A stretch of 64,000 bases of DNA from positions 1 through 64,000 of the forward strand of contig NZ_JAJVKW010000023.1 of the NCBI RefSeq assembly GCF_024198255.1, read 5' to 3'. The translations under genes and the position numbers were made by a program. Numbering within the stretch: the stretch's first letter is position 1; the number at the start of each line of letters is the position of its first letter. The DNA comes from Myxococcus guangdongensis. GTDB lineage: Bacteria; Myxococcota; Myxococcia; Myxococcales; Myxococcaceae. This document shows positions 1-16,333 of this stretch, piece by piece. The notes below the pieces were generated by a model. The model did not search any database, was not told where the DNA came from, and saw nothing but the letters and a program-made list of their open reading frames with translations.

Positions 1-58
1 TGGCACAGCGCTCGTCAGCGCAGACTCGCGGGCGCGGCACCTCCGCACACGGCGTCAC
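1..58 (-). CDS. 5' end of an unidentified prophage gene, cut by the window edge
   Basis: A GTG at 58 overlaps the TGA of the RusA-like gene (55-57) in the same 4-base GTGA arrangement used throughout this operon. The frame then stays open to the window edge and gives 19 residues with three cysteines. Too little is visible for a function. The call rests on the overlap pattern alone. Confidence 0.35.
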   Translation of the reverse strand, partial: MTPCAEVPRPRVCADERCA

Positions 59-597
59 GGCGCGCCTCCCCTCCGGTACGCGGGCGTCACGAGGTCCGCC
101 CAGGAGCGGGCCTTCCCCTCTGCCTTCGTCGTCTTCACGGTGGACGCCCTCTCCTTCCTGGGTGCGCGCGCGGGGCGCGTCCGAGGCGCCAGTGCCACAG
201 GAGGTGGCGGGGGCGCCACAGCCTCCTGTGCGCGGACGGCGGTGATGAGCTCGTCCTCGCCCCAGGACAGCTCCACCAGCACGGACGGCTCTCCCAGCGC
301 TTGTGCGTACAACCACCGCACCAGGGGTGAGGCATCGTCCAGCCGGAGCTGCCGGGCCACCTCGTCGCGCACGCTCTTCAGCGCGGCGGGGAGGTTGTCT
401 CCCCCGTCCAGGAGCTGCGACGCAACACGCGTGAGGCGCACCACCAGCAGCACGGGCCCTGTCCACCCGGGCCACAGCAGCTCGAGCGCCTGGCGCTGCC
501 CCTTCGCCCGCCGCGCGCGGGCCATGTGGTGCTCCCGGGTGTTGGTGGGGTTCTTCGTGCCCACCGGCAGCGTGAAGACGATACGCGAACAACTCAC
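55..597 (-). CDS. RusA-like Holliday junction endonuclease (prophage)
   Basis: This 180-residue protein most likely acts as a crossover-junction endodeoxyribonuclease that resolves branched phage DNA. The RusA layout is visible: an N-terminal beta strand ending in LPV (residues about 5-10), an Arg/His/Lys-rich stretch, a hydrophobic strand VLLVVRLTRVAS, then DGGDNLPAALKSVRDEVA followed by LDD. The spaced aspartates match the metal-binding positions of RusA. The last roughly 60 residues are a Pro/Ala/Arg/Lys-rich tail not usual for RusA. The GTG start at 597 is chosen because it overlaps the upstream TGA by four bases. Family assignment is by motif pattern only. Confidence 0.65.
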   Translation of the reverse strand: MSCSRIVFTLPVGTKNPTNTREHHMARARRAKGQRQALELLWPGWTGPVLLVVRLTRVASQLLDGGDNLPAALKSVRDEVARQLRLDDASPLVRWLYAQALGEPSVLVELSWGEDELITAVRAQEAVAPPPPPVALAPRTRPARAPRKERASTVKTTKAEGKARSWADLVTPAYRRGGAP

Positions 598-899
598 GCG
601 TCCCCACCCTTCGGCGCCCACTGGCGCTCCACCGCGGCGAACGTCTCGCCCACGCGCGCGTAGACGTCGTCCCACACGGCCTGGGCGATGACGGTGCCCT
701 CCGGAAGGACGCCGGACGACGCCTCGAGCCCGGCCACGGCCTTCGACATGGCCTGCGCGTTGGGATTTCCCAGGCGCTGCTGCTCGGTGACGTAGGCGCG
801 GGCCACGTGGGCGACGACGGCGCCGTTGCCCGCGTTGTACGGCCCGGCGGCGACGCACGGTTGGTGGGACGGCTTCCTGGTACGACGGCACCGGTTCAT
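594..899 (-). CDS. hypothetical prophage protein, 101 aa
   Basis: This is a small protein with a basic N-terminus containing two cysteines (residues about 4 and 15) and a helical Ala-rich remainder. I do not recognise a family. The ATG at 899 overlaps the TGA of the papain-like gene (ATGA), and its own stop overlaps the GTG of the RusA-like gene. A longer frame extends upstream, but its N-terminal sequence is low-complexity Arg/Ala/Gly and is antisense-like, so it was rejected. A replication or recombination accessory role would fit the neighbours but is not shown. Confidence 0.6.
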   Translation of the reverse strand: MNRCRRTRKPSHQPCVAAGPYNAGNGAVVAHVARAYVTEQQRLGNPNAQAMSKAVAGLEASSGVLPEGTVIAQAVWDDVYARVGETFAAVERQWAPKGGDA

Positions 900-1393
900 G
901 ACGAGAGGACCTCCAGCACGACGCGCACAGCCCACTTCCCGGACGCCCCACGGTGCCGCTCCAGCAGCTCCGCCAGCACCTGGACCTTCCACTCCTCCGA
1001 GGGCAACCACCCGCCCGCGCTCCCGGTGTTGCAGTCGTAGATGGACAGCGCCCCGCCGTCCCGGTGCAGGCCCACCCAGTGCGTGTGCCGGTACTGGGCG
1101 CGCTCCGGCGCGCTGTCCCACGAGCCCCGGAGCTGGAGGAAGGCTACCCCGTGGACGTCTCCGCGCGGCATGCCCTGCTGGACGCGGTGGTGCAGCCCCT
1201 GGGCGGCGAGTGCGGCCGCCATGCTGGTGGGCGTCGTCCAGGGCTTCGCGGGGAAGCCGGGGAAGCTGCCGCGCACCAGGCGCAGGGGCACGCCCAGCAC
1301 CGCGGCGAGGGCGGACGGCCCGCAGTTGGCCTTCCACGCACCGTTGGCCTCAAGGAGGTCCGGTGGTGCGTACAGCTCACGGCACGGCGTCAT
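896..1393 (-). CDS. papain-like/C39-like cysteine peptidase fold protein (prophage)
   Basis: This 165-residue protein carries a nucleophile-type motif, NCGPSALAAVLG (residues about 23-34), as in C39-like and papain-like cysteine peptidases. A later HTHWVGL segment (about 105-111) followed by YDCNT supplies the expected His and Asn/Asp. No signal peptide is visible, so it probably acts in the cytoplasm, perhaps as a peptidase or deamidase. It overlaps the upstream gene by 17 bases, which is longer than the 4-base overlaps common here. The fold is reasonably supported; the substrate is unknown. Confidence 0.55.
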   Translation of the reverse strand: MTPCRELYAPPDLLEANGAWKANCGPSALAAVLGVPLRLVRGSFPGFPAKPWTTPTSMAAALAAQGLHHRVQQGMPRGDVHGVAFLQLRGSWDSAPERAQYRHTHWVGLHRDGGALSIYDCNTGSAGGWLPSEEWKVQVLAELLERHRGASGKWAVRVVLEVLSS

Positions 1394-1709
1394 GAGGCGC
1401 CTCCTGGTAGAGCAACTCGGCGGCGGGGATGCCCTCCGCGCGCAGCTTCACGAGCGCGTCCTCCAGCCGGAGAAAGGTGTGGATGGCCCGGGTGGTGACG
1501 TCGTAGACGGCCACGGCGTCCTGGGAGCCCAGGCGGACGAGGTGCCAGCTCCTGGACTCGGACTGGCCCCACAGGCGCCGCGCGCGCCCACCCTCGATGT
1601 CATCCACCAGCCGGGCCAGGGCCCGCGAGGTGAGGGCCACCCGGAAGCGGATGGAGGCGTGCCGCTTCGCGCAGCGGGCCGCGCCCCGGGCATGCGCTTC
1701 AGTCGTCAT
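1377..1709 (-). CDS. hypothetical prophage protein, 110 aa, possibly DUF4258/BrnT-like
   Basis: The protein starts at the ATG that overlaps the SLOG gene stop (ATGA at 1706-1709). The core reads as an alpha/beta unit: a basic strand RHASIRFRVAL, a helix, then a strand pair ending AVAVYDVTTRAIHTFL. That ordering resembles small RelE/BrnT or DUF4258-type folds, but no catalytic residues can be fixed and no antitoxin partner is adjacent. The toxin-like idea is therefore weak and the gene is best treated as unknown. Confidence 0.5.
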   Translation of the reverse strand: MTTEAHARGAARCAKRHASIRFRVALTSRALARLVDDIEGGRARRLWGQSESRSWHLVRLGSQDAVAVYDVTTRAIHTFLRLEDALVKLRAEGIPAAELLYQEAPHDAVP

Positions 1710-2185
1710 GGGAAGCACTCCTCGGAGAGCAGCCTTCCATCGGGCGAGAGGAGCAGCACGCGCCCCTGCCAGCCCTCCGCACGACAGAGGCTAACCATGT
1801 GCCGCGTACCCCTTCCGAGTCCCGGGTCCGTGTGCGCGGCCACCCAACCCACGGTGAAACCGCGCCGCGCGTACCCGCGCAAGGCCTCCCGCATCAGCTC
1901 GTTCCTCGCGCGTCCGGCGCGCTTCTCCATGCCCTTCCAGTCCGCGCGAAAGCGGTCCACGGCCTCGCGGTGGAAGCGGGGCCACTCGACGGACGCCGCC
2001 ACTTCCCACAGCCAGTCCGCCCCAAACGCGTCGGGGGCGTCGTCGCGGCGTGGCTCCCCGGCCCCGTGCACGAGCTGCACGTCCGGCGAGCGGGCGAAGC
2101 GGCGGACGTAGCCGCGCAGCGCCGGCAGGTGCGCCAGCGTCAGGCCCGAGGCGCCACAGGCGAGGAGTGCGCGGCGGCACGTCAT
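1706..2185 (-). CDS. YspA/DUF2493-type SLOG-family protein (prophage)
   Basis: This is a 159-residue Rossmann-like protein of the SLOG superfamily, whose members bind nucleotide-derived ligands. The family pattern is visible: a strand ending in LVHGAGE (about 37-43), then GAD.LWE.AA, a Trp/Phe-rich stretch, a KRAGRARNELM helix (about 88-98, the R-N-x-x-M signature), and GRGTRHMVSLCRAEG, equivalent to the usual GT..M...A...G element. Such proteins are common in actinophage and proteobacterial prophage early regions with unproven roles. Start and stop both sit in ATGA overlaps. Confidence 0.65.
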   Translation of the reverse strand: MTCRRALLACGASGLTLAHLPALRGYVRRFARSPDVQLVHGAGEPRRDDAPDAFGADWLWEVAASVEWPRFHREAVDRFRADWKGMEKRAGRARNELMREALRGYARRGFTVGWVAAHTDPGLGRGTRHMVSLCRAEGWQGRVLLLSPDGRLLSEECFP

Positions 2186-2661
2186 GCCCGGCCCCCTGCC
2201 GCACACGAGCTTGGAAGCAGCGTGCTGGGGTACATGAGGCGTGCGGCGAGTCCCGGCGGCGTCCGCATCCGCTTGAGCGCCGCCCCTTCGCTGCACAGCA
2301 CCGGCGGGAGCTGGCCCGTCCGCCGCCACCACGGCACCGCGTCCATCGCGTAGCCGCGGCTCCGCTCGGCGCTGTCCCGCCTGCCGCCCAACCGCTCCAG
2401 CACGGACTCGCGCAGCCACCACCAGCGGCGGTACCGCACCTGCCACGGCACCTGGATGTCGTCGTGAAGCTGGGCCGCCAGCGCCCTCGCGCCACGTGGC
2501 TCCAGGAGCGCGGCGAGGTGGCCATTCTGACCAGACGCCCCCTCACCGAGCGCATCAGGGAGCATGTACTCAGGCACCAGGCATTCGAGCGCGACTGGGC
2601 CGGAGACGCGGGAGACCAGGTAGCGGACGCGCCACGGCGTGCGGACGTGCTCGATGCTCAC
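2182..2661 (-). CDS. hypothetical prophage protein, 159 aa
   Basis: The GTG start at 2661 overlaps the DnaC-like gene stop (GTGA). The protein is Trp- and Arg-rich in the middle (a YRRWWWLRESVLERLGG segment) with an acidic, hydrophobic N-terminal half. I recognise no domain. Its position directly after the helicase-loader-like gene suggests DNA replication or processing, which is inference from context only. Confidence 0.55.
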   Translation of the reverse strand: MSIEHVRTPWRVRYLVSRVSGPVALECLVPEYMLPDALGEGASGQNGHLAALLEPRGARALAAQLHDDIQVPWQVRYRRWWWLRESVLERLGGRRDSAERSRGYAMDAVPWWRRTGQLPPVLCSEGAALKRMRTPPGLAARLMYPSTLLPSSCAAGGRA

Positions 2662-3473
2662 GGCGTCCCCCCGCGGCGCAAGTCACGCGTGCCGCAGTCG
2701 TGCAGCAGATAGGTGCCCTGGCGGCACATGCGCGAGACGACGCGGGCCCCCACGTGCTCGGAGAAGTCGCTGCCGCCGCGCTCGGCGTCGCGCCGGACGG
2801 AGAGGTTGGTGGTGTAGGCCGTCACCAGCCCCGGCCTGTCCCGCCGGTCCACGAGCTCTTCCAGCAGCTCTCGGTGGCGCGGCCCCACCACATCCCCCGG
2901 CAGCCCGCCCAAGTCATCCAGCACCAGCACGCGCGCACGGTGGGCACGCTGGAGGAGGAGCCTGTCCTCCGTCTCGTAGTCGCTGACGCGCTTGAGCTGC
3001 GCCCAGCGGAGGAAGAGCCCCGCGGACGCATCCCACTCGTGCAGTCGCTGGCCCGTGCGCGTCTCGGCGCGGACAGCCGCGTGGAAGAGGTGACACGCAC
3101 CCGTCGTCTTCCCCACGCCAGTGCCCCCGGACAGCAGCAGGGTGCGCAGCCCCTCCCGGAGCAGCTGGCGCGCGGCGCGGACGGCGGGCGTCTCCAGCAC
3201 CTTGCCCCCAGCGAGGGCCGCCACAGCTTCAGCCGGCGCGCCGCACAGCTTCAGGTGCAGGGGCCACGCCTCCACCTGGGCGGCCTGGTGCCGTGCCCTC
3301 TCCGCCGCCTCGAAATGCTGGAGCTCCAGCTCCCGTTGCTTCCAGCCCGCCTCGAGCTGGCCCAGCCCGGGGACGGAGTGCTGCCGGGCCTGCGCCATGC
3401 CCCGGCGCAGCAGGTCCGCCAGTCGCTGGGGGCCCTGGCGCTGCACCGCGGGCATCTCGTTGTCTCGGCTCAT
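2658..3473 (-). CDS. DnaC/IstB-like AAA+ ATPase, probable phage helicase loader
   Basis: This 271-residue protein carries a P-loop, SGGTGVGKTTGA (residues about 114-125), and a Walker B element, RVLVLDDLGG (about 167-176), with a downstream Arg-rich region holding sensor-type residues. The N-terminal 100 residues are helical and charged, as in DnaC-type helicase loaders. It lies immediately downstream of the initiator that holds the iterons, the usual initiator/loader pairing of theta-type phage replication modules. ATG at 3473 overlaps the initiator stop. It may load the host DnaB onto the phage origin. Confidence 0.75.
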   Translation of the reverse strand: MSRDNEMPAVQRQGPQRLADLLRRGMAQARQHSVPGLGQLEAGWKQRELELQHFEAAERARHQAAQVEAWPLHLKLCGAPAEAVAALAGGKVLETPAVRAARQLLREGLRTLLLSGGTGVGKTTGACHLFHAAVRAETRTGQRLHEWDASAGLFLRWAQLKRVSDYETEDRLLLQRAHRARVLVLDDLGGLPGDVVGPRHRELLEELVDRRDRPGLVTAYTTNLSVRRDAERGGSDFSEHVGARVVSRMCRQGTYLLHDCGTRDLRRGGTP

Positions 3474-5188
3474 AGACTCTCCACCCGCCCTTCCTCGTAG
3501 TCGTTGTTGTTGAGGGGCCTGCCCGGCGCGCGCGCGGGCACGGCCCGCTCCTCAGGTGCGGCGTTGTCATTCCACTTCCGCGCCAAGTCGCCGAGGTGGT
3601 CGCAGCGCTGCTTGAAGCGCGCGCGCAGCCCGTTGCTCAGCCGGCGGAGAATCTCCGGGACGCCCCCGGCGCCAGCGAGGGAGAGCAGCGCCCGGGACGC
3701 GTCGTCGTCCGCGCGGCCTCGCCAGCGGTAGCTGTAGCCCTTCACTTCGCGAAAGACGCGCTCCACCCCGTCCGGCAGGGACTCAGCGGGCGGCTCCTGC
3801 TGGGGCGGCAACTCGAATGGGAGGGTGTCTCCCGGCTCGGACACCAAAGCCGGGGGCGCGGACGGCACTTCCTCCTCGTCCTCTCCCTCCGGGACCACGA
3901 AGCGCAGCCCGGCCAGGCCCTGGGCGGCCAGGAGCTCTTGCAGCACGACGCGGTAGTGCTCCTCTGCCCACCCGCGGGCGAACCTGTCCCTCACCTCGAC
4001 GACGAGGTGCCCGTCCTCCACCGTCACCGGGCGCGCGGACTGGAGCTGCTTCAGCGCCTCCACCATCCTCCGGGCCTTCAGCACGGCCAGGACGCGGCCC
4101 CACGCACGCACCGCCTCGGTGCCCTCGGGCACGTCCTCGAGGCACACGGAGACGCCGGGCTCCTCCTCGGGCGCGGGCACCGTCGGCAGCGGGTCCAGAC
4201 TCCATGCGCCGCTGAGGAGCTGCTCGGCCACCTCCGCGCCAGCGCGCGTCCGCCCCAGCACCCAGACGACGGTGGCGCGCATGCGGCTGTCCAGCTCGCC
4301 TCGGCACACCGGGGAGCGCGGGACGCGGGCGAACACGTCTTGCCACGCCGAGAGGGGGTGGCGCGCGAGGGCAGACAGCGCGTCCTCCAGCATCTGCACG
4401 GAGGTGCGCTCGCCCCAGCCGTAGAAGCCGTGCGGCGCCACCAGCGTGTTCCATGCCTCGCGCAGCGCCCGGACGTCTGGCGGGAGGCTCTCCGGCTTGC
4501 GGTGCTCGCGCAGCTCCAGCCCCATGTCACGCTGCGCCTGCGTGACACCGCGCCGCGCGCCCCTCCTCTTCCCGGCAGAGGGAGGGGGAGGAGGCCGTGA
4601 ATTGTCGGCTGTCACGCTGTCACGCTGGGCGTCACGCTGCCGTTGGAGCCGCTTCCTAAGCGTCGCAGGCTTCGGAAATTCTTCGGCTTTCCCCTCCCCC
4701 CCTCCCCCCTCCTTCTGCTGCGTCACGCTGACTGTCACGCTGCTGGAGGGGGTGTCACGCTGACTGTCACGCTGCGCCAGCGTGACGGGGTTGGAGCGCT
4801 GCGTGACAAGCGAGACGGCGGGCGTGGCGAGAGGCGCGGCAGCCAGGGGCTGTGCAGGGCGCGCGCCAGCCCACGGGGCCAGCAGTGCGATGGCCTGGCG
4901 CCAGCCGTGGTCGACGCCGGCCGCGTAGCTCTCCGCGCGCAGCCGGGACTCGCGCTCCACCAGCAGCTGCGCGCGCAGCTCCGCCACCTGCTGCTGGGCG
5001 CAGGGGCATGCCTCGGCGAAGAAGTCAGGCGGCAAGCCCGGGTCCTCGCCGCACGCGCGGGCGCCACTCCCCGGAGGGGGAATCACCTGCTGGGCCTGCG
5101 CCTCGGAGACGAGCTGGCCGCTCAACAGGCGCACCATGCCCGGCGGCACCTCGGACTCCGGCGGCGTGAGGGGGTTGCAGGCGGGCAT
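3470..5188 (-). CDS. phage replication initiator with DnaA_N-like domain and internal iterons
   Basis: This is a 572-residue protein. Residues about 135-222 are encoded by the iteron array and read as repeated QRD and SVT tripeptides within a low-complexity Gln/Pro/Gly linker. Residues about 358-432 match the DnaA N-terminal domain pattern: a Trp-Gly-Arg-Val-Leu helix, a hydrophobic LVVEVRDRFARGWAEEHY segment, then a strand LRFVV. In DnaA this domain contacts the helicase and other partners. The C-terminus is helical and basic. With the origin-like repeats inside its own gene and a loader-like ATPase downstream, it resembles the lambda O arrangement. ATG at 5188 follows the previous stop by two bases. 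The initiator role is inferred, not proven. Confidence 0.65.
   Translation of the reverse strand: MPACNPLTPPESEVPPGMVRLLSGQLVSEAQAQQVIPPPGSGARACGEDPGLPPDFFAEACPCAQQQVAELRAQLLVERESRLRAESYAAGVDHGWRQAIALLAPWAGARPAQPLAAAPLATPAVSLVTQRSNPVTLAQRDSQRDTPSSSVTVSVTQQKEGGGGEGKAEEFPKPATLRKRLQRQRDAQRDSVTADNSRPPPPPSAGKRRGARRGVTQAQRDMGLELREHRKPESLPPDVRALREAWNTLVAPHGFYGWGERTSVQMLEDALSALARHPLSAWQDVFARVPRSPVCRGELDSRMRATVVWVLGRTRAGAEVAEQLLSGAWSLDPLPTVPAPEEEPGVSVCLEDVPEGTEAVRAWGRVLAVLKARRMVEALKQLQSARPVTVEDGHLVVEVRDRFARGWAEEHYRVVLQELLAAQGLAGLRFVVPEGEDEEEVPSAPPALVSEPGDTLPFELPPQQEPPAESLPDGVERVFREVKGYSYRWRGRADDDASRALLSLAGAGGVPEILRRLSNGLRARFKQRCDHLGDLARKWNDNAAPEERAVPARAPGRPLNNNDYEEGRVESL
4526..4807. repeat. iteron array inside the initiator gene, candidate phage replication origin
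   Basis: The 9-mer GTCACGCTG occurs eight times in one orientation, at 4526, 4611, 4619, 4631, 4722, 4734, 4754 and 4766, and once perfectly inverted (CAGCGTGAC, 4778-4786). Near-copies CTGCGTGAC lie at 4538 and 4799. Several spacings are 12 or 20 bases. The last direct copy and the inverted copy form a perfect palindrome (4766-4786), and the first copy with its near-copy forms a similar one (4526-4546). Between the two clusters lies a polypyrimidine tract (about 4690-4715) that is G-rich on the coding strand. Dense, phased repeats in an initiator gene are the classic signature of an iteron origin. Confidence 0.7.
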
Positions 5189-5190
5189 GA

Positions 5191-5460
5191 CTACGGCACC
5201 TCAAGGTGAACGGGCACAGAAGGAAGAAGGGGCGACGGCGCGCAGCAGCACGCGGGGAGGACGGGCTGGTTGCGGCACCCGGCGCGGTACAGGGCGCCGT
5301 GCAGGCACGTGGGCCACTCGCCCGGGTGGGCAGCGCGGACGCGCTCGGTGGGGGCCGTGGGCGCATGCGGCGCCAAGGCGCCGAGCTCGGTGACGTCCTC
5401 GCCGAGTCGGGGCGCGCCGCACACCGTGCAGAGGGAGGCGCGGAGGAGGCACCGGCTCAT
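5191..5460 (-). CDS. small Cys-rich hypothetical prophage protein, 89 aa
   Basis: The frame starts at an ATG overlapping the adenine methylase stop (ATGA) and ends two bases before the initiator start, so the junctions support it as real. It has an N-terminal CTVCG pair, further Cys residues near 52, 61 and 70, and a Cys-Cys-Cys run, which could hold a zinc ion. No family is recognised and the composition is otherwise biased toward Pro and Ala. Confidence 0.5.
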   Translation of the reverse strand: MSRCLLRASLCTVCGAPRLGEDVTELGALAPHAPTAPTERVRAAHPGEWPTCLHGALYRAGCRNQPVLPACCCAPSPLLPSVPVHLEVP

Positions 5461-6697
5461 GCGGCACCTCCAAGAAGGACAGCCAGGGGGAGTCCACGGA
5501 GCGGCTCATCCGCGGGCGCAAGGCAGTGAGGGCTGAGCCAGATGCGCTCGCGCAGCGCGTTCTCGTGGTTGCCGCGCGCGGCCGCGTACCCACCCGGCGC
5601 CTTCCATGCGACGCAGCGCCAGCTCGCGGGCATCCCGTGCTCACCCTCGTAGCCGCACAGGGCGATGCGCAGCCGGGGGTTGTCCCCGTTGGCCAGGGCC
5701 CACTCACGCACCCGGTGGGCCACCTGCAGGTCTTCCTCCGCGTAGATGCTCGGGTCCCGGTCGGCCGCGTCCGAGTACGGCGGGTCCAGCAGCACGCCCG
5801 TCACGCCAATCCGCTCGGTGACGTTGGGTGAGAGGACTCGGCTCCAATCGCCACAGCAGACGCGCACGTGGCGCAGGCGCTCGGCCAGGGCCTGCATCCA
5901 CGCCAAGACGCCCCCGCGCTTCCCGCTCGCGAGGACGCCGCGCCCGGTGGCGCCGCTGTCTCCCTTCAACATGGGAATCTGCTGGGACAGGCCGTGCACA
6001 CCCTTCCCGCCGCGAGCGAGGCTCGGCCGCTTCGCCCACGTGGCCGACTCGGAGAGGCTCTGCACCCGGCGCGCGTGGACGCTGCTGCTGTTGAGGCTCG
6101 GGCGCTGGGCATGCTCGGACGTCGACGTCCCGCGCACGGAGAGTTGGTGGATGCCCCGTCCCGGCTTGTCGAGCATCGGCCGCTTCGAGTACTCGGACGT
6201 CGCGATGCCGCACGTCTTCTCGGCGCCGGACGAGGCCTGCTCCTCCCATGCGGGCTGCGAGCACCAGCCGCTGCCAATCCACTGGCAGATGCCCCACACC
6301 CACCAGCCGGCCACCTTCGCGTCGAAGAAGTCCGGGTCCTGGCGCATCCGCTGGCGGAAGTCCCCCTGGGCCACCAACCACCGGTGCCGGGCGTGCAGGT
6401 CCGCCTCGTTGACGGGCCAGTCCGCGTGCCGCGCCACCTCATCCGGCGCGGCGCGGAGCGCCCGCCAGAAGTTGGCCAGGTACGTGTCCAGGTCGTTCAC
6501 CGTCTCCACGCCGGGCGGCGTGGGACGCGCGAGCAGCACCGCGAGGCTGCCGGCGAACGGCTCCACGTAGTTGGCCACGTCGCCGAAGGCGCTCCACACC
6601 AGGTGGGCCGCGCGCGACTTCCCGCCGAACCAACCCCCCAGGGGAAAGGCGCACGCAGCACCCTTCCCCCAGTCACACCTCCAATCCCGCCGCTCAT
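5457..6697 (-). CDS. Dam-type (D12 class) adenine-N6 methyltransferase, apparent frameshift
   Basis: The protein has FGGKSRAA and EPFAGS (the SAM-binding region), VNDLDTYLANFWRAL, and the catalytic DPPY motif in LLDPPYSDA. These are the hallmarks of Dam-like adenine methylases, which in phages usually protect DNA from restriction. Three repeats of the form RPxLxxxGxGxH lie between them. The ATGA-coupled ATG at 6697 opens a frame that reads LRAPFPW and then runs into a G6 run (C6 at 6634-6639 on plus). Continuing in the -1 frame gives GGWFGGKS and the rest of the enzyme. Either one G is missing, the sequence has an error, or -1 slippage restores the enzyme. A frame open from an ATG at 6785 exists but lacks the expected N-terminus. 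Confidence 0.7.
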
Positions 6698-7275
6698 GGC
6701 GCCCTCTGTGCGCACAGTCGATGCGCGTGTGATGTTGAAATGCCGAACTCGGTGGAGATGTCCTTGAGTCGCGCGCCCGCGGCACGCCGCGCTCTCACCG
6801 CGAGGACCTGCTCCTCGGTGAGCAGCGCTCGCCCCACCCGCCACTCACCCGCGCGAGCCTTCTTGCTCCACGGACGCACGCGACCGTTCGCGTAGGAGTG
6901 CTGGATGTTCCCGGCCCCGGTGACGACCTCGAGGTTCGACGGGCGGTTGTTCCTCTTGTCGAGGTCCCGGTGGTTGATTTGCATGTCCGCCGGCACAGGC
7001 CCGACGAGAGACGCATAGACAAGCCTGTGGGCCATCACCTGCACGAGCCCCTGTCCGGGAACATGGAGCGTCACGCGCAAGTAGCCGTTGCCGCTCTTGT
7101 TCTCCGCGCGGCGCGGGGCAACGTCCTTCCACCCGGACCGGGTGCGAATGGCGCAACGCCACACCTGCCCGTCAGCGTCGATGCGGAGCACTCCTCCGTG
7201 AACGTGAGCGAGCGCATACGCCATCGCGTCGCCCGTCCACGGAAAGGGAGCTCGAAGTGGAGGGCACGGAGTCAT
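6694..7275 (-). CDS. HNH endonuclease with C-terminal helix-turn-helix (homing-type)
   Basis: This 193-residue protein has an HNH core in its middle: a MAHRLVY helix, then INHRDLDKRNNRPSNLEVV, with the conserved His and Asn residues, and a GNIQHSYANGR segment. The C-terminus reads LTEEQVLAVRARRAAGARL followed by a DISTEFGISTSHAHRL helix-turn-helix, as in free-standing homing endonucleases that bind their target with a NUMOD/HTH module. The N-terminus carries LRAPFPW, which recurs at the start of the downstream adenine methylase. The ATG at 7275 overlaps the helicase stop. It probably moves as a selfish element inside the operon. Confidence 0.75.
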   Translation of the reverse strand: MTPCPPLRAPFPWTGDAMAYALAHVHGGVLRIDADGQVWRCAIRTRSGWKDVAPRRAENKSGNGYLRVTLHVPGQGLVQVMAHRLVYASLVGPVPADMQINHRDLDKRNNRPSNLEVVTGAGNIQHSYANGRVRPWSKKARAGEWRVGRALLTEEQVLAVRARRAAGARLKDISTEFGISTSHAHRLCAQRAP

Positions 7276-8996
7276 GCCGCCCTCCGATTCTTGAGGAAGG
7301 ACTCGGCCAGACGCCGCACACGGTGCGCGTCCGTCTCCAGCTTCTCCATGAGGCTGGCCTGCGGGTCGCGGATGCCCTCCATCTGGTCCCGCTTGATGCC
7401 CAGCACGTCGGCCACCACAGGGTCCGAGCCGCTGTCGGAGACGAGGAAGTAGGCCATGACGGGGTCCACCTGCCCGTCGCGGTGGACGCGCCCACACGCC
7501 TGCTCGTGGACGCCCGGACTCCAGTCCAGCTCGCCGAACACCACCGTCCGGCAGGACTGCTGCAGCCCGTCCAGGCCCGCGCCCGCGCGCAGGGACATGA
7601 TGAGGATGGGCGTCTGCCCGGACTTGAAGCGCTGGGCCTCCGCCTCCTTCTGGGCCGGGGACTCCTGGCCCGTGAAAATGGCCGGGGAGAATTCGCGGAG
7701 TCGCTCCTGCCACAGCCGGTACACCTCGTGGTGCCAGCCGTAGAGCAGCACGCGCTCTCCGTTCTCCACCAGCATCCGGACGAAGTCCGCGACGAAGGGG
7801 GCCTTCGCGATGCCCGTGGCCTGCCGAAGGCGCCAGGAGAGCTCTCCGGAGGCATGCAGCCTGTCCTCGGGCTTCACCCCACCCTGCGCGAGGATGATGC
7901 GCGCCAGCTCCGCCGCCTTGTCCTCGACGGCGTCCAGCACCTTGGTGTCCGAGTCCACGGTGTGGAGGACACGCGTGAGGGCGGGCAACTCCCGGCCCAC
8001 GTCCGCGCGCGTCCGGCGCAACATGAGTCCCGTGTCCCGGAGGTACGTGCCGAAGGCCCGCGGGTCCTTGAAGGACAGCTTGTCCTCCACGCCCGTGCAC
8101 CACTCGCGGCTGAACTCCTCGCGCGTGCCCAGCACACCGGGCTTGAGCGCGTCGAGGACGTGAAACATCTCCCCGCCGTAGTTGTAGATGGGGGTGGCTG
8201 ACAGGCCGATGACGAAGCTCGCGCGCTCAGCGAGGTAGTGCGCGGCGCGGTACTTCTCCGAGTCGGGCCCTCGGCGCAACTCCTGGCACTCGTCAAAGAC
8301 GATGGTGCGCACGCCCGCGCTGACCAGCGTCTCCGCCCAGCCGGACAGCTTGTGGTAGTTGAGGACGAGGACGTCTGGCCACGGCAGCTTCCGCCCTCCC
8401 CGCCCCTGCGTGACTTCCTCAGGCGTCGCCTTCTTCGCGACGTGGACGCGCAGCCGGGGCAGGAAGCGCGCCAGCTCCCGTTGCCACTGGCGTGGCAGGT
8501 GCGTCAGCGTCACCACCACCGCGGGCAAGGTGCGCGTGTCCGTGAAGGCCGTCAGCGCGCTTGCTGTCTTTCCCAGACCCACGTCGTCCGCCAACAGCAG
8601 GTGCTGCATGCGCAGGAACATGTCCGCCGCGCGCCGCTGGTACTCGCGCGGAGGGACGTTCATCTGGAAGTCCGGAACCTGGTACTTCGCGGAGAGCAGC
8701 TCGGCGACGGCAGCCTCACGCCGCGCATGCTCCCGCGCCCCGTGCTTGAGGAGGGCCTGCGCGTCCTTGCCCACCACCTCCAGCGGGTAGCGCTGGATGA
8801 ACCACTCCAGCTCCCGCGCCGTCTCCTCCGTCGCCGCGAGCAGCACCTCGCCCACGTCGCCCTTGTTGGCCCTGTCGAAGACGCGCTTCAGCCGCAGTGA
8901 CACGTGCGGCTCGCACTGGACGACCCAGGCGGGCCTCTCACCGCCACGCGCGCCCAGCTTCCGACTCTCCAGACGCAGCGTTCCGAAGCACTTCAC
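7272..8996 (-). CDS. SNF2/DEAD-like superfamily 2 helicase (prophage)
   Basis: A 574-residue SF2 ATPase. A Walker A equivalent, DDVGLGKTASA, lies near residue 140. A DEAH-like box, FDECQEL, lies near 239, and SATPIYNYGG (motif III) follows. The second RecA-like half includes LIMSLRAGAGLDGLQ (motif V) and QACGRVHRDGQ (motif VI). The Q-R-G/H-R-x-G-Q pattern is typical of SNF2-type translocases. Such helicases occur in phage early regions and in restriction or defence modules. It lies between a nuclease-like gene and an HNH gene and near two methylases. GTG at 8996 overlaps the nuclease stop. Confidence 0.8.
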   Translation of the reverse strand: MKCFGTLRLESRKLGARGGERPAWVVQCEPHVSLRLKRVFDRANKGDVGEVLLAATEETARELEWFIQRYPLEVVGKDAQALLKHGAREHARREAAVAELLSAKYQVPDFQMNVPPREYQRRAADMFLRMQHLLLADDVGLGKTASALTAFTDTRTLPAVVVTLTHLPRQWQRELARFLPRLRVHVAKKATPEEVTQGRGGRKLPWPDVLVLNYHKLSGWAETLVSAGVRTIVFDECQELRRGPDSEKYRAAHYLAERASFVIGLSATPIYNYGGEMFHVLDALKPGVLGTREEFSREWCTGVEDKLSFKDPRAFGTYLRDTGLMLRRTRADVGRELPALTRVLHTVDSDTKVLDAVEDKAAELARIILAQGGVKPEDRLHASGELSWRLRQATGIAKAPFVADFVRMLVENGERVLLYGWHHEVYRLWQERLREFSPAIFTGQESPAQKEAEAQRFKSGQTPILIMSLRAGAGLDGLQQSCRTVVFGELDWSPGVHEQACGRVHRDGQVDPVMAYFLVSDSGSDPVVADVLGIKRDQMEGIRDPQASLMEKLETDAHRVRRLAESFLKNRRAA

Positions 8997-9364
8997 AGGA
9001 GACCTCCTCGCAGCACAGCGACACGGACGGGCTTGCCGCGCAGGTGCGCCGGCAGGCCGTCATGGTGAGAACGGGTGGTGACGAGCAGGAGGCCGTGGAC
9101 TTCCTCCCGCTCCGCGTAGTCCAGGAGCTGCCGGGTGACGGCGGAGATGCTTCCCTCCACCTTCACCTCGAGCCCCAGGTGGCCCAGCAGGAAGTCGATG
9201 CGGCCTGCCTCGCCCAGCATCACTTCGCGGTGGAACGACACTCCAGCGCCGGCGAGGACCTGCGCCAGCGCGGACTGCAGCTGAGCCTCTCCGGTGCAGC
9301 GGTAGCGGTGGGCCAGGACGAGCGAGCGCAGCTGGCCCAGCTCTTCGAGAAGGGGCGTGCTCAT
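8993..9364 (-). CDS. PD-(D/E)XK nuclease-like protein, 123 aa
   Basis: The core is a minimal PD-(D/E)XK fold: a helix EAQLQSALAQVL, a strand with a conserved Glu, then GRIDFLLGHLGLEVKVEG (about residues 57-74). This supplies the Asp and the Glu-x-Lys catalytic pair, and is followed by a helix and the strand GLLLVTTR. It matches small restriction-endonuclease-like nucleases found next to SNF2 helicases in phages. ATG at 9364 overlaps the cytosine methylase stop. Whether it acts alone or with the downstream helicase is unknown. Confidence 0.7.
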   Translation of the reverse strand: MSTPLLEELGQLRSLVLAHRYRCTGEAQLQSALAQVLAGAGVSFHREVMLGEAGRIDFLLGHLGLEVKVEGSISAVTRQLLDYAEREEVHGLLLVTTRSHHDGLPAHLRGKPVRVAVLRGGLL

Positions 9365-10899
9365 GCCGCCCTCCTGCGCACAACGGCGCCGCCGACATTC
9401 GCCCGGACAACAGCCGCCGCCGCGTCCGGGCACACGCTGTTGCCGATGAGGCGGACCTTGTCTGCCTTCGACGTGGCCGCGCTCAAGTCGTAGCCCTTGG
9501 CGTGGTCCCCGAACTGGGCACGGAGGAGTTCGCTCGGCTCCAGCATCCGGAGGCCGATGTCGACGAACTGATAGTCGACGGAGGCGACCGTCACCAGTCC
9601 GAGGCGGGCCTTGGTGGTGATGGTCCGGAGGGGCTCCGTCAGGCGCTGCCCTTCGCTGCCCTCCCCGTAGTACGCGGAGAGGAAGGCGCGGACCTCGTTC
9701 ACGTGGTTCGACGCAGCGGACTCGGGACGCTCGAACGCGACAGCCGCGAGGTGGTGGTGGTCCTGGGTGGTGATGGTGTCCAGGGGCCCGTCGGCGCGGA
9801 TGCCCGGCGACGCGTGTCCGCCGTAGCCCTTCGCGATGAAGGAAGCCGCGAGGCGGTGCTCACGAAGGAAGGCGCTCACCAGGGCGTGCTTGCGCCCCTG
9901 GGCCATGATGGTGCCCAGCGGCGCGTGCAGGTCCAGCGTCCGCGCGGCCTGCCCCTTCCGCTCTCCGTAGCCGACCTGGATGAGCGTGTGTGCAACCAGT
10001 GCATGGCGGGCCTTCGTCACGATGGTGGAGAGCGGCTCGTCCACAGGGCGCGCGGTGTCCCGCGTGCTCTGTTGATCGATGGTGAGGACGAACGGCGCGG
10101 GGTTCTCGAACACGTACTTGCGGATGCCCTGCGCGACGCGTCGGAGCGTGTTCGGCACGAGCGGCTTCCGGCGTCCGAAGATGCTCTGGACGGGGATGCT
10201 CCAGTCGATGCACTCCGCCGCAGTCCGAACCGGCAGAAGTCCAGGCCCGTGGGTCGGCGCAGGCCAGGAGACGGGGAGCCCGTCCCGGCGCGCCACGAGG
10301 AAGAGCCGCTTTCGCTTCGTCGGCGCCCCGTGCTCACTCGCCGTGATGAGTCGCCAGTCGACGCTGTACCCGAGCAGCCGCAACTCACCGACGAACCGCT
10401 GGAAGTCCTCGCCCGCGCGCTCGGGGATGGGCATGTCGATGAGCTGGTCCCCTTCCTCGAGGACCCGCCCGTCGGGCATGACGTGGCCCACCGTGTACAA
10501 CGGGCCCCAATCGACGAACTCCTCGACGTTCTCCAGGAAGATGAACTGCGGCGACACGTCGCGCGCGTAGTGCGTCACGACGAAGGCCAGCGAGCGGATG
10601 TCCTTGCGTCTGGGCTTGGCGCCCTTCGCCTTAGAGAAGTGGGTGCAGTCCGGGGAGGCCCACAGAATCCACACCCGCTTCCCGCGGCGCTGCGCGAGCG
10701 CGACCACCTGCCGTGGCGGCGTCTTCCACACGTTCTCGGGCCTGCAGATGGTGGTGGTGTGGTTGGCCTTGTAGACGGCCATCGCCACCGGGTCGTGGTT
10801 GAGGGCGATGTCCGGCTCCCGTCCGACGGCAGCGGCGATGCCGGTGCCCGCGCCACCGCCACCGGCGAACAGGTCGATGATGAGCCCCTGGTCCATCAT
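9361..10899 (-). CDS. C5-cytosine DNA methyltransferase (prophage)
   Basis: A 512-residue C5 methyltransferase. Motif I is IIDLFAGGGGAGTGI at the N-terminus. Motif IV is ASPDCTHFSKAKG near residue 82, with the catalytic Cys in an unusual SPDC rather than PPC context. Motif VI is LENVEEF, and motif X is LIGNSVCPDAA near the C-terminus. The target-recognition region holds four related segments of the form P-L-x-T-I near KARHALV, GRKHALV, DHHHLAA and KARLGLV, a repeat typical of this phage subfamily. ATG at 10899 overlaps the small membrane protein stop. It likely guards phage DNA from host restriction. Confidence 0.85.
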   Translation of the reverse strand: MMDQGLIIDLFAGGGGAGTGIAAAVGREPDIALNHDPVAMAVYKANHTTTICRPENVWKTPPRQVVALAQRRGKRVWILWASPDCTHFSKAKGAKPRRKDIRSLAFVVTHYARDVSPQFIFLENVEEFVDWGPLYTVGHVMPDGRVLEEGDQLIDMPIPERAGEDFQRFVGELRLLGYSVDWRLITASEHGAPTKRKRLFLVARRDGLPVSWPAPTHGPGLLPVRTAAECIDWSIPVQSIFGRRKPLVPNTLRRVAQGIRKYVFENPAPFVLTIDQQSTRDTARPVDEPLSTIVTKARHALVAHTLIQVGYGERKGQAARTLDLHAPLGTIMAQGRKHALVSAFLREHRLAASFIAKGYGGHASPGIRADGPLDTITTQDHHHLAAVAFERPESAASNHVNEVRAFLSAYYGEGSEGQRLTEPLRTITTKARLGLVTVASVDYQFVDIGLRMLEPSELLRAQFGDHAKGYDLSAATSKADKVRLIGNSVCPDAAAAVVRANVGGAVVRRRAA

Positions 10900-11081
10900 G
10901 GAGAGCTCCGGCGGAACGCGGCGACCACCAGGTAGGCGCCGCCGAGAAAGAGGACGAGGGCCACCAGCCCCCACCCTCCAGCCTCGACGTACGCGCAGGC
11001 GCGCCACTCGGCGTGGGCATGAGCAGCGGCAACGCCACACAGGGCCGCGGCAAGAATGGCGAGGACGAGACGGCGGCTCAC
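10896..11081 (-). CDS. small membrane protein, 61 aa
   Basis: The protein has two hydrophobic stretches: an N-terminal signal-like segment (LVLAILAAALCGVAAAHA) and a second helix (WGLVALVLFLGGAYLVVAAF) before a short basic tail. It is probably an inner-membrane protein with both segments spanning. Holin or superinfection-exclusion roles would be possible but nothing shows them. Two adjacent GTG codons occur at 11084 and 11081; the second gives the 4-base overlap and is preferred. Confidence 0.6.
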   Translation of the reverse strand: MSRRLVLAILAAALCGVAAAHAHAEWRACAYVEAGGWGLVALVLFLGGAYLVVAAFRRSSP

Positions 11082-11392
11082 CACCGGCCCTCCTTGAGGC
11101 GCGCCACCTTCTCGCGCTCTTCGCGGAGCCGCTCAGCCCATGCGGTGCGGACGGCATCACCGTGGATGACGGAGTGCTCTACGAAGCGGGCGCCGCGCAC
11201 CGTGGCCTTGACGCCGCAGTACGCGCACTCCATGGCGCACTCGGGGATTCCAGCCTGGCCCTGCTGGAGCGCCTCCTCGAGCGCCCCCAAGGACACCGGC
11301 ACCATGGCGGCGTTGCCGCACCCTCGGCACTGGGCGACGGGGCCCACGGGCGCGGCGGGGAAGCCATGGACAGAGGGCTTGCGCACGCTCAT
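11078..11392 (-). CDS. putative zinc-ribbon prophage protein, 104 aa
   Basis: Two pairs of cysteines, CRGCG (about 22-26) and CAMECAYCG (about 52-60), make a plausible zinc ribbon in the N-terminal two thirds. A charged helix rich in Arg and Glu forms the C-terminus. Zinc ribbons of this kind often bind nucleic acid or a protein partner. No specific family is recognised. ATG at 11392 overlaps the upstream stop. Confidence 0.55.
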   Translation of the reverse strand: MSVRKPSVHGFPAAPVGPVAQCRGCGNAAMVPVSLGALEEALQQGQAGIPECAMECAYCGVKATVRGARFVEHSVIHGDAVRTAWAERLREEREKVARLKEGRW

Positions 11393-11952
11393 GGCTGGGC
11401 GCCTCCGGGGTGGGCCTGCTGCTCGGCGGCCAGCTCAGCGCGGATGGCGACGGCCAGGGCCGGCATCACCTCGCGCGCGAAGCTCTGCACGTCGGGCGGG
11501 TAGTCGTAGCGAGCGAAGCCAGCGGCATCGGCGATGCTCGTCGCGTGGTACCACCGGCCGAACTGCTCAAGGTCGATGTCCAAGGCATCGCGAGGCACGC
11601 CCCCGGTGAAACAGTCGAGGGACTCGGCGAGCACCCGCCACTCCTTGGCGGCATCCTCCTTGGACAACGAGCGTTCACGCCGGCTGGTGAGGAGGTACTC
11701 GCGGATGCGCTTCAGCGTCCCCTCGCCGTCGTACCAGTCGCGGCTCTCAAGCTTCCCGCTCACGTAGTCAGGGGACAACGCCAGCCGGGCGACGAACTCC
11801 CGGAAGGGGCATCCCGGGCTGCTCCACCGGCAGGCGTAGTTGCCCCAGTCGCTCACGGTGGCGAAGAAGCCGTCCGAGCGGAGGATGACGTCCGCGAGCC
11901 ACGCACCCTTCTCGGTGCGCAGCCGGTACTGCCAGATGCTGGGCGCACTCAT
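11389..11952 (-). CDS. hypothetical prophage protein, 187 aa
   Basis: A mixed alpha/beta protein that begins with SIWQYRLRTEKGAWLADVIL, followed by a DWGNYACRW and SPGCPFREFVARL region. The second half is helical, with an RRERSLSKEDAAKEWRVL stretch. It reads as a genuine protein by composition and by its ATGA overlaps on both sides, but I recognise no domain or function. Confidence 0.6.
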   Translation of the reverse strand: MSAPSIWQYRLRTEKGAWLADVILRSDGFFATVSDWGNYACRWSSPGCPFREFVARLALSPDYVSGKLESRDWYDGEGTLKRIREYLLTSRRERSLSKEDAAKEWRVLAESLDCFTGGVPRDALDIDLEQFGRWYHATSIADAAGFARYDYPPDVQSFAREVMPALAVAIRAELAAEQQAHPGGAQP

Positions 11953-12308
11953 GACGCCCCCGCCTTCCCCATGTCGACGAACTGGGTGCGGCCGGCGTGG
12001 ATGCAGTGCAGGGTGGCCATGTCCCTGTTGCTCAGAGCGGACATCGGCGCGCGCAAATCGTCGATGCCCTTGGTCCAATCGAGCGGCAACGACAGGAGCG
12101 CCGCGACCAGGACGAGTGCGTGGGTGCCGTCAGTGAGCACCGGGGCCAGCCAACACCCGGACGCCTCATGGGTGATGGAGTAGTGGCCCTCCTCGCAGGC
12201 GATGGCCAAGCCAGCCCGGCGAAACACGCAGGGCCGTGTCACCGTGCCTTCAGGCATCGTGATGATGACGGGAGCGAGTCCCGACTCGAACTTGAGCCCG
12301 GTACTCAC
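11949..12308 (-). CDS. hypothetical prophage protein, 119 aa
   Basis: A predicted beta-rich N-terminal half (VIITMPEGTVTRPCVF, ACEEGHYSITHE) is followed by a hydrophobic segment, TDGTHALVLVAALLSLPLDW, and a helical C-terminus. The hydrophobic segment may be buried rather than a membrane span. No family is recognised. The GTG start at 12308 overlaps the stop of the XRE regulator gene. Confidence 0.55.
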   Translation of the reverse strand: MSTGLKFESGLAPVIITMPEGTVTRPCVFRRAGLAIACEEGHYSITHEASGCWLAPVLTDGTHALVLVAALLSLPLDWTKGIDDLRAPMSALSNRDMATLHCIHAGRTQFVDMGKAGAS

Positions 12309-12658
12309 GAGTCACCTCCAGCCGGGAACAGCACCCGGGCCACGGACTCGAGCTGGCCCACCTGCGAGGCGGAGAGCCCGCGGTACGTGATGAAGGAGCG
12401 CAGCCCAGCGCTCACGTCCCCCTCCTGCGGCGCGTCGCCCAGCGACACCAGCGTCGCCACCGACACGTCCAGCGCCGCGGACAGGGCCAACAGCGTCTGG
12501 AGGTGCGGCGCACGCTCGCCGCGCTCCAGCATGGACAGGTACGAGACGCTGATGTCGGCCCGCTCCGCGAGCTCCTCCTGCGTCAACTTGCGCTCGGTGC
12601 GCTGCTTCTGGATGTACTTGCCCACCTGCTTGACCAACGACTTCGTGTTCTCGTTCAC
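12305..12658 (-). CDS. XRE-family helix-turn-helix regulator (prophage)
   Basis: This 117-residue protein has a clear XRE/Cro-C1 domain in residues about 9-65: VGKYIQKQRTERKLTQEELA, then ADISVSYLSMLERGERAP and a LALSAALDVSVATLVSLG helix. The C-terminal 50 residues are short and Ser/Ala-rich, too small for a cleavable peptidase domain, so it is not a LexA/C1-type self-cleaving repressor. It may set the lysogenic state or autoregulate the operon, but no operator or divergent promoter is visible because the genes overlap on both sides. GTG at 12658 gives the GTGA overlap. Confidence 0.8.
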   Translation of the reverse strand: MNENTKSLVKQVGKYIQKQRTERKLTQEELAERADISVSYLSMLERGERAPHLQTLLALSAALDVSVATLVSLGDAPQEGDVSAGLRSFITYRGLSASQVGQLESVARVLFPAGGDS

Positions 12659-12909
12659 GGTGACCTCGGGGTAGTGCCGGCGCGCGCGCGGCTGCTGGCG
12701 CGGCGCACTGGAGGGAGGGACAGCGCTTCGGCGGGGGCGGCGCTCACCAGTCCGATGCCGGCGAGCGCCAGGAAGTCGACCGCGGCGAGGAGCCAGCAGG
12801 CGCCGGCCTCGCGCGGGTGGTACTGCTGGAGGCTCGCGCCCAGCCACACCAGGACACCGGCGGACGCCGCGAGCGCAACGCAGAGGGAGACGACGAGGAC
12901 GGGCTTCAT
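12655..12909 (-). CDS. small two-helix membrane protein, 84 aa
   Basis: Two strongly hydrophobic segments (about 4-28 and 38-60) are followed by a basic Arg/Ser-rich cytoplasmic tail. The first segment lacks a clear cleavage site, so both probably span the inner membrane. Function is unknown. The gene lies between two DNA-binding regulators and overlaps both by four bases. Confidence 0.55.
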   Translation of the reverse strand: MKPVLVVSLCVALAASAGVLVWLGASLQQYHPREAGACWLLAAVDFLALAGIGLVSAAPAEALSLPPVRRASSRARAGTTPRSP

Positions 12910-13247
12910 GGCGCGCCCTCGCTGACGTGGTTGTACTCGCCGAAGAGCGCCGTCTGCTCTCGCAGGCACCGGGCCCGTGCGGCACAGCCGTCCTCCGTCA
13001 CCCGGAGGCTCCGGTGTCGACGCTTCCTCAACGCGACGAGTCCCCGCGCGGCCAGGCGCCGCAGGACATCCGCCGCGCCGTTGGGGGACTTCCACCCGAA
13101 GCGCTCGCTCAGCTCGTGGACGCTGGGCGGCTCGCCGCGCGCGGCGATGAAGGCGCAGGTGTAGACAAGGACGGCGAGCTGGAGGCTCGTCGGCTGGCCA
13201 CGCGCGGAGCCGTGCTCAGGTGGCGGACGAAGGTTGCACGCCGTCAT
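12906..13247 (-). CDS. winged-helix DNA-binding protein, LexA-N-domain-like
   Basis: Residues about 22-85 form a winged-helix unit: a helix LAVLVYTCAFIAARG, PPSVHELSERFGWKSP, a recognition helix NGAADVLRRLAARGLV and a basic wing KRRHRSLRVTEDG. The PS-x-x-E-L-x-x-x-F-G-x-x-S arrangement is that of the LexA N-terminal domain. There is no peptidase domain, so it may compete for or modify a LexA-like operator rather than respond by autocleavage. It lies next to a sigma factor and an XRE protein, which makes this stretch a regulatory block. Confidence 0.7.
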   Translation of the reverse strand: MTACNLRPPPEHGSARGQPTSLQLAVLVYTCAFIAARGEPPSVHELSERFGWKSPNGAADVLRRLAARGLVALRKRRHRSLRVTEDGCAARARCLREQTALFGEYNHVSEGAP

Positions 13248-13873
13248 GCCACCCTCCGTTCCCACGCGGGCGTCATGGACGCGGCCCAACGGACGGAGGC
13301 CTTCTCCGCGATGTTGAGGAGTTGGTGTGCGCTCTGCCTCGACGCCCCCAGCTCCGCGCCGATTTCTTCGAGCGTGTCCCCCTTCAGGCGCAGCAGGTAC
13401 GCCCGCAGCGCCTTGACGCGCGTTGGCTCGCGCAGCCCGGGCCGGAAGTGCGGACACATCCGCTCGCCGAGGGTGGCGCCCAGGCGGTGAGCTTCGGCCA
13501 GTCGCTCCTGCGACGGCGCAACGGCAACGTCGAGCACGTCGTCGAGCGGCACGTACTTCCCAGCCACGGGCTTGCCGTCCTCGTCACGGACGGCGCCGAT
13601 GAGGGACAGCCAGCCTCGCGCCACGTCCCGGCGGATGTACCGCTTCGCGAAGGTGCGGTAGCTGGCACCACCCTCCGGGTGCCAGCGCTGGGCCGCAGCC
13701 ATCGCCCCCATCCACGCGTAGGTGGAGAGGTCATCCTCGAAGCCGCGCGCGGCCTCGTGGCGACGGACGTAGGAGTGGACGCACCACCAGACGACCTTCT
13801 CGGCCGTCAGCACCAGCTTCTGCTCCGCCTTGGTGAGCGGGCGCTGGGTGTACTTCGTGACAGGCTCACCCAC
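13244..13873 (-). CDS. sigma-70-like RNA polymerase sigma factor (prophage)
   Basis: This 209-residue protein follows a minimal sigma-70 layout. Region 2 spans about residues 18-78: VVWWCVHSYVRRHEAARGFEDD, an aromatic TYAWMGAMAAAQRW, then YRTFAKRYIRRDV, matching the core-binding and -10-reading segments. A C-terminal region-4 helix-turn-helix follows (LKGDTLEEIGAELGASRQSAHQLL). It could redirect host RNA polymerase to phage late genes. The GTG at 13873 overlaps the upstream stop by eight bases. An ATG at 13903 is also in frame but lies inside the upstream gene. Confidence 0.75.
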   Translation of the reverse strand: MGEPVTKYTQRPLTKAEQKLVLTAEKVVWWCVHSYVRRHEAARGFEDDLSTYAWMGAMAAAQRWHPEGGASYRTFAKRYIRRDVARGWLSLIGAVRDEDGKPVAGKYVPLDDVLDVAVAPSQERLAEAHRLGATLGERMCPHFRPGLREPTRVKALRAYLLRLKGDTLEEIGAELGASRQSAHQLLNIAEKASVRWAASMTPAWERRVA

Positions 13874-14339: not shown

Positions 14340-14551
14340 GGGAGCCTCCTCAACGGGCGCCTGCCCAGGCTGAAGCTGCGGGGCGTCCGCGCGCGGCGCA
14401 GCTCGTCCACCAGGGCGGCCCTGGCGTCGTCCATGGCCTCCCCGCGGGTGGCCGCGTGCGCCTCCACCTCGGCACTGGTGGCGCGTAGGGTGACGACGTG
14501 GCCCAGGGGGCCGCGCGCGGAGATGCTGGCGAAGTGGGCGGAGCAGCTCAT
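14336..14551 (-). CDS. hypothetical prophage protein, 71 aa
   Basis: A short protein with a beta-like start (GHVVTLRATSAEVEAH), a helix (MDDARAALVDELRRA) and a basic Arg-rich tail. Its start overlaps the PP2C stop (ATGA) and its stop overlaps the next gene. No family is recognised. Confidence 0.5.
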   Translation of the reverse strand: MSCSAHFASISARGPLGHVVTLRATSAEVEAHAATRGEAMDDARAALVDELRRARTPRSFSLGRRPLRRLP

Positions 14552-16221: not shown

Positions 16222-16259
16222 TCGCTGGCCGGAGGACTGCTTCCTTCGCTACTCAAAAA

Positions 16260-16333
<74 letters not shown>

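Follow-up and report, generated by a model that had tools for sequence, protein, structure and literature searches.

A GTCACGC iteron array within a chimeric initiator gene as a probable lambda-like replication origin of a Myxococcus prophage

In bacteriophage lambda, the helicase-delivery gene P comes after the initiator gene O. In the origins of lambda, P27 and 933W, the initiator gene has iterons and an AT-rich stretch midway along its length, and in lambda-type origins extra iterons add residues to the initiator, according to the published account (PMC7466680). The present analysis concerns a window of 64,000 nucleotides at the start of a contig of Myxococcus guangdongensis. Like the three phage origins, it has an initiator gene with iterons and an AT-rich tract in its central part. 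A further likeness is that the window and a second copy of the prophage (L041) differ here by 12 bp, corresponding to 4 amino acids of the initiator, and a helicase-delivery gene adjoins the initiator at this locus as well. The features are collected in Table 1.

Table 1. Position and basis of the features at the predicted origin (window coordinates; a dot marks features without strand)
Feature	Position	Strand	Basis or remark
Phage replication initiator, 572 aa, chimeric, contains predicted origin	3470..5188	-	ORF, relatives, folds
Long coiled-coil-type helix, residues 62-107	4868..5005	-	AlphaFold
Arg-rich helix, residues 174-190	4619..4669	-	AlphaFold, pLDDT about 65
Helical domain, residues 227-333	4190..4510	-	Conserved; weak fold likeness to phage initiators
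DnaA domain I-like fold, residues 355-433	3890..4126	-	Profile, Pfam, fold
C-terminal domain, residues 457-572	3473..3820	-	phrog_8130; possible loader contact
Iteron array	4526..4807	.	8 perfect direct 9-mers, 1 perfect inverted, 2 one-mismatch inverted
Coding-5' iteron cluster, 6 cores	4722..4807	.	Includes 9-3-9 inverted repeat 4766-4786
Middle iteron cluster, 3 cores	4611..4639	.	Steps 8 and 12
Coding-3' inverted iteron pair, 2 cores	4526..4546	.	Inverted pair
AT-richest 40 bp of gene, candidate DNA unwinding element	4653..4692	.	47% AT
Purine tract of coding strand, longest purine run of gene	4687..4719	-	
Pyrimidine tract of coding strand, longest pyrimidine run of gene	4574..4594	-	
DnaC-like helicase loader, 271 aa, Walker A GGTGVGKT	2658..3473	-	Directly downstream of initiator

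The array places 11 GTCACGC cores in 282 bases of the minus-strand initiator ORF. Perfect direct copies of the 9-mer GTCACGCTG start at 4526, 4611, 4619, 4631, 4722, 4734, 4754 and 4766; the perfect inverted copy occupies 4778-4786, and the inverted copies with one mismatch (GTCACGCAG) occupy 4538-4546 and 4799-4807. From start to start the steps are 12, 73, 8, 12, 91, 12, 20, 12, 12 and 21 bases, with a single base shared by the copies at 4611 and 4619. A preliminary description of this DNA had reported the same eight direct, one inverted and two near-inverted copies, all of which could be located by position, and the 12- and 20-base spacings it gave are both among the measured steps. Its perfect 21-base palindrome at the right end has to be amended to a 9-3-9 inverted repeat (4766-4786), in which the 9-base arms are perfect and the 3-base spacer is not palindromic. 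The left-end pair (4526-4546), described as a near copy of the right-end pair, is indeed a 95% copy of it, and the polypyrimidine tract said to separate the clusters was found at 4687-4719, purine-rich on the coding strand and conserved.

The exceptional feature is the clustering of the iterons, the count over the whole window not being strongly raised: allowing one mismatch, GTCACGCTG occurs 47 times in the 64 kb against 35.9 expected, and 5 of 100 shuffles reach 47. Nowhere else in the window does a 9-mer reach five copies within 400 bp; the array has 9. Across the 11.2-Mb genome (53 contigs), the exact 12-bp-spaced pair is confined to the window array and a prophage on contig C11, with 7 exact matches and two one-mismatch matches more, on C11; the reversed-control pattern has no match in the same genome. 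No DnaA-box-like site occurs in or near the array, the 64 kb holding 7 (with one mismatch) against 8.5 expected, and Rfam gave no match in 2500-7000. Folded as single-stranded DNA, the array outperforms 200 of 200 shuffles (z -4.7).

The layout was compared in 17 genes of the initiator family, window included. The gene of L043 is cut off at its contig end, and L051 entered the core count with a longer upstream frame and alignment A1 with an arbitrary later start; since the family rows are kin, two pairs being near-identical, the layout counts are not independent. An array with 5-13 cores is present in 15 of the 17 genes, and the GTCACGC core is absent from the two most distant relatives, L053 and L061. 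In the corresponding linker of these two, GTCCCC-type repeats adjoin a basic segment. The inter-cluster gap measures 91 nt in 9 of the 15 genes, 81 nt in two, 93-94 nt in three and 118 nt in one, and two genes added after this set, L067 and L071, have gaps of 103 and 81 nt. In all 15 genes compared for AT content, the array contains the AT-richest 40 bp; in the window, this segment stands at the 99.6th percentile of the first 35 kb, its AT content being modest in absolute terms. Read along the coding strand, every one of 17 genes has its longest purine run ahead of its longest pyrimidine run, and in 16 of the 17 both runs fall in the array. Compared with codon permutations, the pyrimidine run is unusual in all 17 genes (at most 6 of 200), and the purine run is unusual in 11 (at most 8 of 200) and ordinary in six, where at least 17 of 200 permutations match it. 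Five aligned genes, the window's among them, have the same G-rich core in the purine tract, down to 56% protein identity. The purine and pyrimidine tracts of the window could pair with each other as single strands.

The arrangement was also sought as DNA, free of any protein. Two 12-bp pairs at a distance of 70-95 bases occur at 8 places in 5 of 195 genomes of the phylum, all inside family initiator genes by their coordinates, and the reversed control has no match in the 195 genomes. A looser GTGAC pair pattern matches in 8 of the 195 genomes, mostly in tandem repeats as judged by eye, and its control matches too; one of the places is the L048 gene. In IMG/VR, the paired-pattern scan gave 11 stretches: five of this family (L063, L066, L067, L070, L071), one that looks like another initiator (L065, whose best PHROG is primosomal, at E 0.065 only) and five repeats. 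In genome contigs, it gave 20 stretches, three of this family (L073, L074, L076), three resembling initiators of other kinds that bear an Arg-rich segment (L075, L088 and L086, the last truncated by its contig end), one ambiguous (L089) and 13 tandem or other repeats by eye. A search for related loci found none in genome contigs and two in viral contigs; INPHARED gave no match for the window protein, L088 or L075, and viral scans with the L088 and L075 proteins gave no match.

The prophage on contig C11 encodes an initiator 95% identical to that of the window, with one core more. This second copy (L041, G000:C11:1-18000) is 93-97% identical in blocks to window positions 1-15666, and the assembly probably broke in the prophage because the window contig and C11 both start within the element. 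Adjacent tRNA-Arg and tRNA-Pro genes were seen at 16148-16334, in the prophage-like region, and adenine-N6 and cytosine-C5 DNA methyltransferase genes (5457-6785, 9361-11160) near the replication module.

The AlphaFold model of the initiator (mean pLDDT 62.7, pTM 0.27) has, in order, a long helix (62-107), disordered residues, an isolated helix (174-190), a helical domain (227-333), a domain around 355-433 and C-terminal helices. Helix 62-107 possibly serves oligomerisation. The isolated helix is Arg-rich, with R178, R183 and R185 invariant in 17 of 17 family rows; it is encoded in the 91-nt inter-cluster gap, its coding sequence extending over the first two of the middle-cluster cores. Residues 227-333, the best conserved part of the family, have weak matches among BFVD phage replication initiators (best E 1.4e-3); a PDB search restricted to residues 212-345 had no match exceeding Z 3.1, which is no proof of a new fold. 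The topology of residues 355-433 is alpha-alpha-beta-beta-alpha-beta, with a profile match to PDB 4tps (3e-5) and fold matches to 4tps (Z 11.9) and 2e0g (Z 8.9), followed by the DciA DUF721 domain (Z 8.1) and ribosomal proteins (Z 7.8). Residues of about 340-450 also match ORFs of ~470 aa in most family genomes, which are presumably the host DnaA. Under the mapping made here, the family-profile positions of W363, which is invariant, and of F403, which is not, align with a Trp and a Phe of E. coli DnaA; in E. coli domain I, this Trp and Phe serve dimerisation and DnaB binding, as reported in PMC5448010.

The DnaA_N-like domain of the preliminary description has E 0.0043 in the window protein, under the Pfam cut-off for that protein alone, and is upheld by the agreement of profile, fold and family Pfam matches (DnaA domain I in 10 of 17 members, best 5.9e-8). 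Its remark that no AAA+ domain is visible also stands: a Pfam scan of the window protein (E<=1) and of the 17 family rows (E<=0.01) recovered neither AAA+ domain III nor domain IV, so that, despite its domain I, the initiator is not DnaA. It does not look like O either, as had been said; no O-named PHROG family is among the matches of the window protein or of the 17 rows, under filters that lose weak matches. The DnaC-like loader described next to the initiator was recovered with phrog_50 (2.8e-19).

A DnaC-like loader, 62-95% identical, comes after the initiator in the window, L041, L009 and L067. It also comes after the initiators of L058 and L060, which have nothing but the C-terminal domain in common with these, and L054 has a weak loader match (28%). 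Among further carriers of the C-terminal domain, L042, L010, L043, L055, L056, L057 and L059 have no match to this loader; in L043, a different Walker-A ATPase lies downstream of the initiator. Twelve of the 17 family proteins end in a DnaA domain I-like domain, and for these 12 a regular expression applied to one strand found no Walker-A ORF of at least 110 aa in the next 2.6 kb. By eye, the initiators of L042 and L010 have a second DnaA domain I-like stretch at the C terminus. Coupling to the loader may be a task of the C-terminal domain, whereas DnaB may be recruited by the DnaA-like domain unaided. A helicase-recruiting role of domain I is reported for E. coli and none for B. subtilis (PMC5448010).

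The repeats, their constraint as DNA, the conserved layout, the domains and the loader neighbourhood are established computationally. Based on these sequence data, it is highly likely that the array is the theta origin of a prophage, placed lambda-like inside its own initiator gene, because the array is conserved as DNA (described below), sits in an initiator gene and is accompanied by an AT-rich, purine-asymmetric segment, a loader and a DnaA domain I fold. The lambda-ori-like layout proposed in the preliminary description gains support from the conserved array, the AT-rich segment, the purine and pyrimidine tracts and the neighbouring loader; the GC-skew check was uninformative and lends the origin no support. 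We infer that the array acts as follows. Initiator molecules would bind the GTCACGC iterons, and an initiator complex would assemble across the three clusters. The AT-rich, purine-asymmetric segment between the clusters would open, and host DnaB would be delivered via the adjacent DnaC-like loader, the DnaA domain I-like domain or both, the loader perhaps being held by the C-terminal domain of the initiator.

The least certain step is the reading of the iterons, for which the Arg-rich helix would be the best candidate. There is nearly an even chance that the array is an origin whose iterons are read not by this helix but by residues 227-333 or the N-terminal part. The high conservation of residues 227-333 counts for such a folded reader, and lambda O binds its iterons with an N-terminal domain; against it, the core recurs in initiator-like genes of several PHROGs that apparently share the Arg-rich segment alone. 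Because GCGTGAC loci with other initiators carry a similar Arg-rich segment, a short helix is suggested as the reader. We therefore put forward, tentatively, that an Arg-rich linker helix of about 15 residues, rather than a folded domain, could read the GTGAC-type iterons around it and form with them a portable origin cassette. Helix and iterons would then be joined to unrelated initiator bodies in Myxococcota and in contigs titled Actinomycetes, Selenomonadales and Thermoguttaceae, which would allow the iterons of an origin to be predicted from the short protein segment, and the linker motifs GGRPRK and ARWxK may pair with other iterons. In L048:7299-8552, a tandem unit in the initiator was seen to repeat the Arg-rich segment together with an iteron pair.

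The recurrence of the core was followed in a DNA-only scan of IMG/VR for three GCGTGAC cores at short distances, with the reversed core as control, which gave at least 120 test loci and at least 120 control loci. Among the 120 listed test loci, about 20 are other initiator-like genes with an Arg-rich segment, and no such initiator was recognised among the 120 listed control loci, both by eye. Among the loci listed, a loose Arg-rich motif lies beside the match in 25 of 120 test loci (17 initiators and 8 not, by eye) and 6 of 120 control loci (none initiator-like by eye); a strict aromatic motif does so in 11 and 6 of 120, mostly not initiators. A profile HMM of the Arg-rich segment was trained on 22 hand-picked segments, and its scores on the training loci are circular because it was built from them. 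At 7 bits or more it found 19 ORFs in 119 listed test loci, 15 of them training members and four from outside (L192, L125, L157, L215), which are initiator-like by eye, and 4 ORFs in 120 listed control loci, none recognised as an initiator. Nine such initiators were compared with PHROGs; eight match replication initiation, primosomal or DnaD-like families, several in number, and one matches none.

An iteron-blind panel consisted of 19 DUF1376 phage initiators from the best 60 of 108 records similar to L147, the similarity lying mostly over the N-terminal part. GTGAC is not generally enriched in these 19 (0-4 copies), fewer than 5% of shuffles reaching the count only in BA3 (0/200) and psageK9 (9/200), so the core tracks the Arg-rich segment more than the N-terminal domain. 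These comparisons suggest an association between core and Arg-rich segment, in an exploratory sample. Among the DUF1376 loci L340-L358, repeats such as AAGCTAA, AACCCA, GCAATGC and CGTGCAC were seen in the initiator genes near GGRPRK, ARWxK or other basic segments. Codon permutation of 18 DUF1376 genes (19 fetched, L343 excluded) did not once in 100 reach the count of the commonest 6-mer in psageK9, IME-Ap7, BA3 and P19250A, reached it in 1-2 of 100 in three genes and in at least 5 of 100 in 11. AACCA-type repeats recur in several linker motif classes, and the data support only in part the view that every class possesses an iteron of its own. For ten initiators of the GTGAC type, no more than 1 of 100 permutations reached the observed count in seven cases; in the other three, 8, 23 and 39 of 100 did.

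It is improbable that the array is instead an operator through which the initiator or another phage protein controls transcription. Iterons often double as autoregulatory sites, and inverted pairs stand at both ends of the array; but the array lies several hundred bases into the gene, not at its start, and 11 sites with an AT-rich segment, purine and pyrimidine tracts and an adjacent loader suit an origin better. Very improbable is a centromere (parS-like) or a packaging or recombination site, for which clustered sites are used elsewhere. No cognate ParA or ParB gene lies near the array among 10 ORFs of the first 11 kb, the window beginning at the contig start, and the sole ParA-superfamily match is a weak CbiA/ParA P-loop of the loader (E 0.04); the only terminase-like gene, itself weak (E 3e-4; 10 ORFs scanned), is ~20 kb away. 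The Myxococcus plasmid pMF1 gives a precedent for iteron-like par sites, but its par motif, AGATGTCT, is unlike GTCACGC (PMC3235114).

As to constraint on the array as DNA, the cores of the window cover all three codon phases, the direct copies using two and the inverted copies the third. When codons were permuted and the protein kept, the mean fell to 1.6-3.3 cores against 8-13 observed (10 genes), and none of 1000 permuted genes reached the observed count in any of the 10. Between the window and L042, four-fold sites are identical at 31 of 35 positions in the array and 96 of 174 outside it (p=1e-4); identity is higher inside the array in 9 of 9 comparisons with the window, with p<0.05 in five and an excess that is not significant in four. 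These three lines, together with the 10-nt difference between the 91- and 81-nt gaps, which is not a multiple of 3, largely contradict the scarcely credible reading in which the repeats arise only because the protein has a repetitive linker (QRD/SVT/VTQ) and have no role as DNA, even though the array encodes a linker predicted by AlphaFold to be disordered and low-complexity linkers expand easily.

Beyond what the single sequence shows, the array is shared by a conserved family, encodes an Arg-rich helix and has a core that recurs in initiator-like genes of other phages. If the origin reading is true, it would provide a Myxococcus phage origin and a helicase-recruiting initiator that uses DnaA domain I without the DnaA motor. 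It also raises a testable general question, namely what sets the DNA word that a phage initiator reads. If the linker helix decides, many phages without annotation could have their origins located and iterons predicted from sequence; swapping the segment between initiators on laboratory plasmids would be a way to check the rule.

Among the matches listed from open-access PMC text, there was no account of this array, of GTGAC phage iterons with an Arg-rich linker or of a bZIP-like phage initiator. TGAC is part of bZIP half-sites, and NRERARAYRLRQ of L048 resembles, by eye, the basic region of eukaryotic bZIP proteins, but alignment A1 shows no conservation of the Asn typical of bZIP. Pfam gave no bZIP match for the window protein (E<=1) or the 17 rows (0.01). 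Other phage initiators (DUF1376 type, primosomal and initiation PHROGs) differ from the window family in their N-terminal parts, and several share GCGTGAC iterons and an ER[KQ]R-type linker segment with it; DnaA_N was not found in L088 and L065, the two such initiators searched. Chromosomal DnaA has the same domain I fold, which in the window initiator lies near the C-terminal side. Compared with lambda ori, the window has 11 short cores of 7-9 bp in three clusters around an AT-rich segment, with purine and pyrimidine tracts; its initiator is not recognised as O-like, and its loader is a DnaC-type ATPase.
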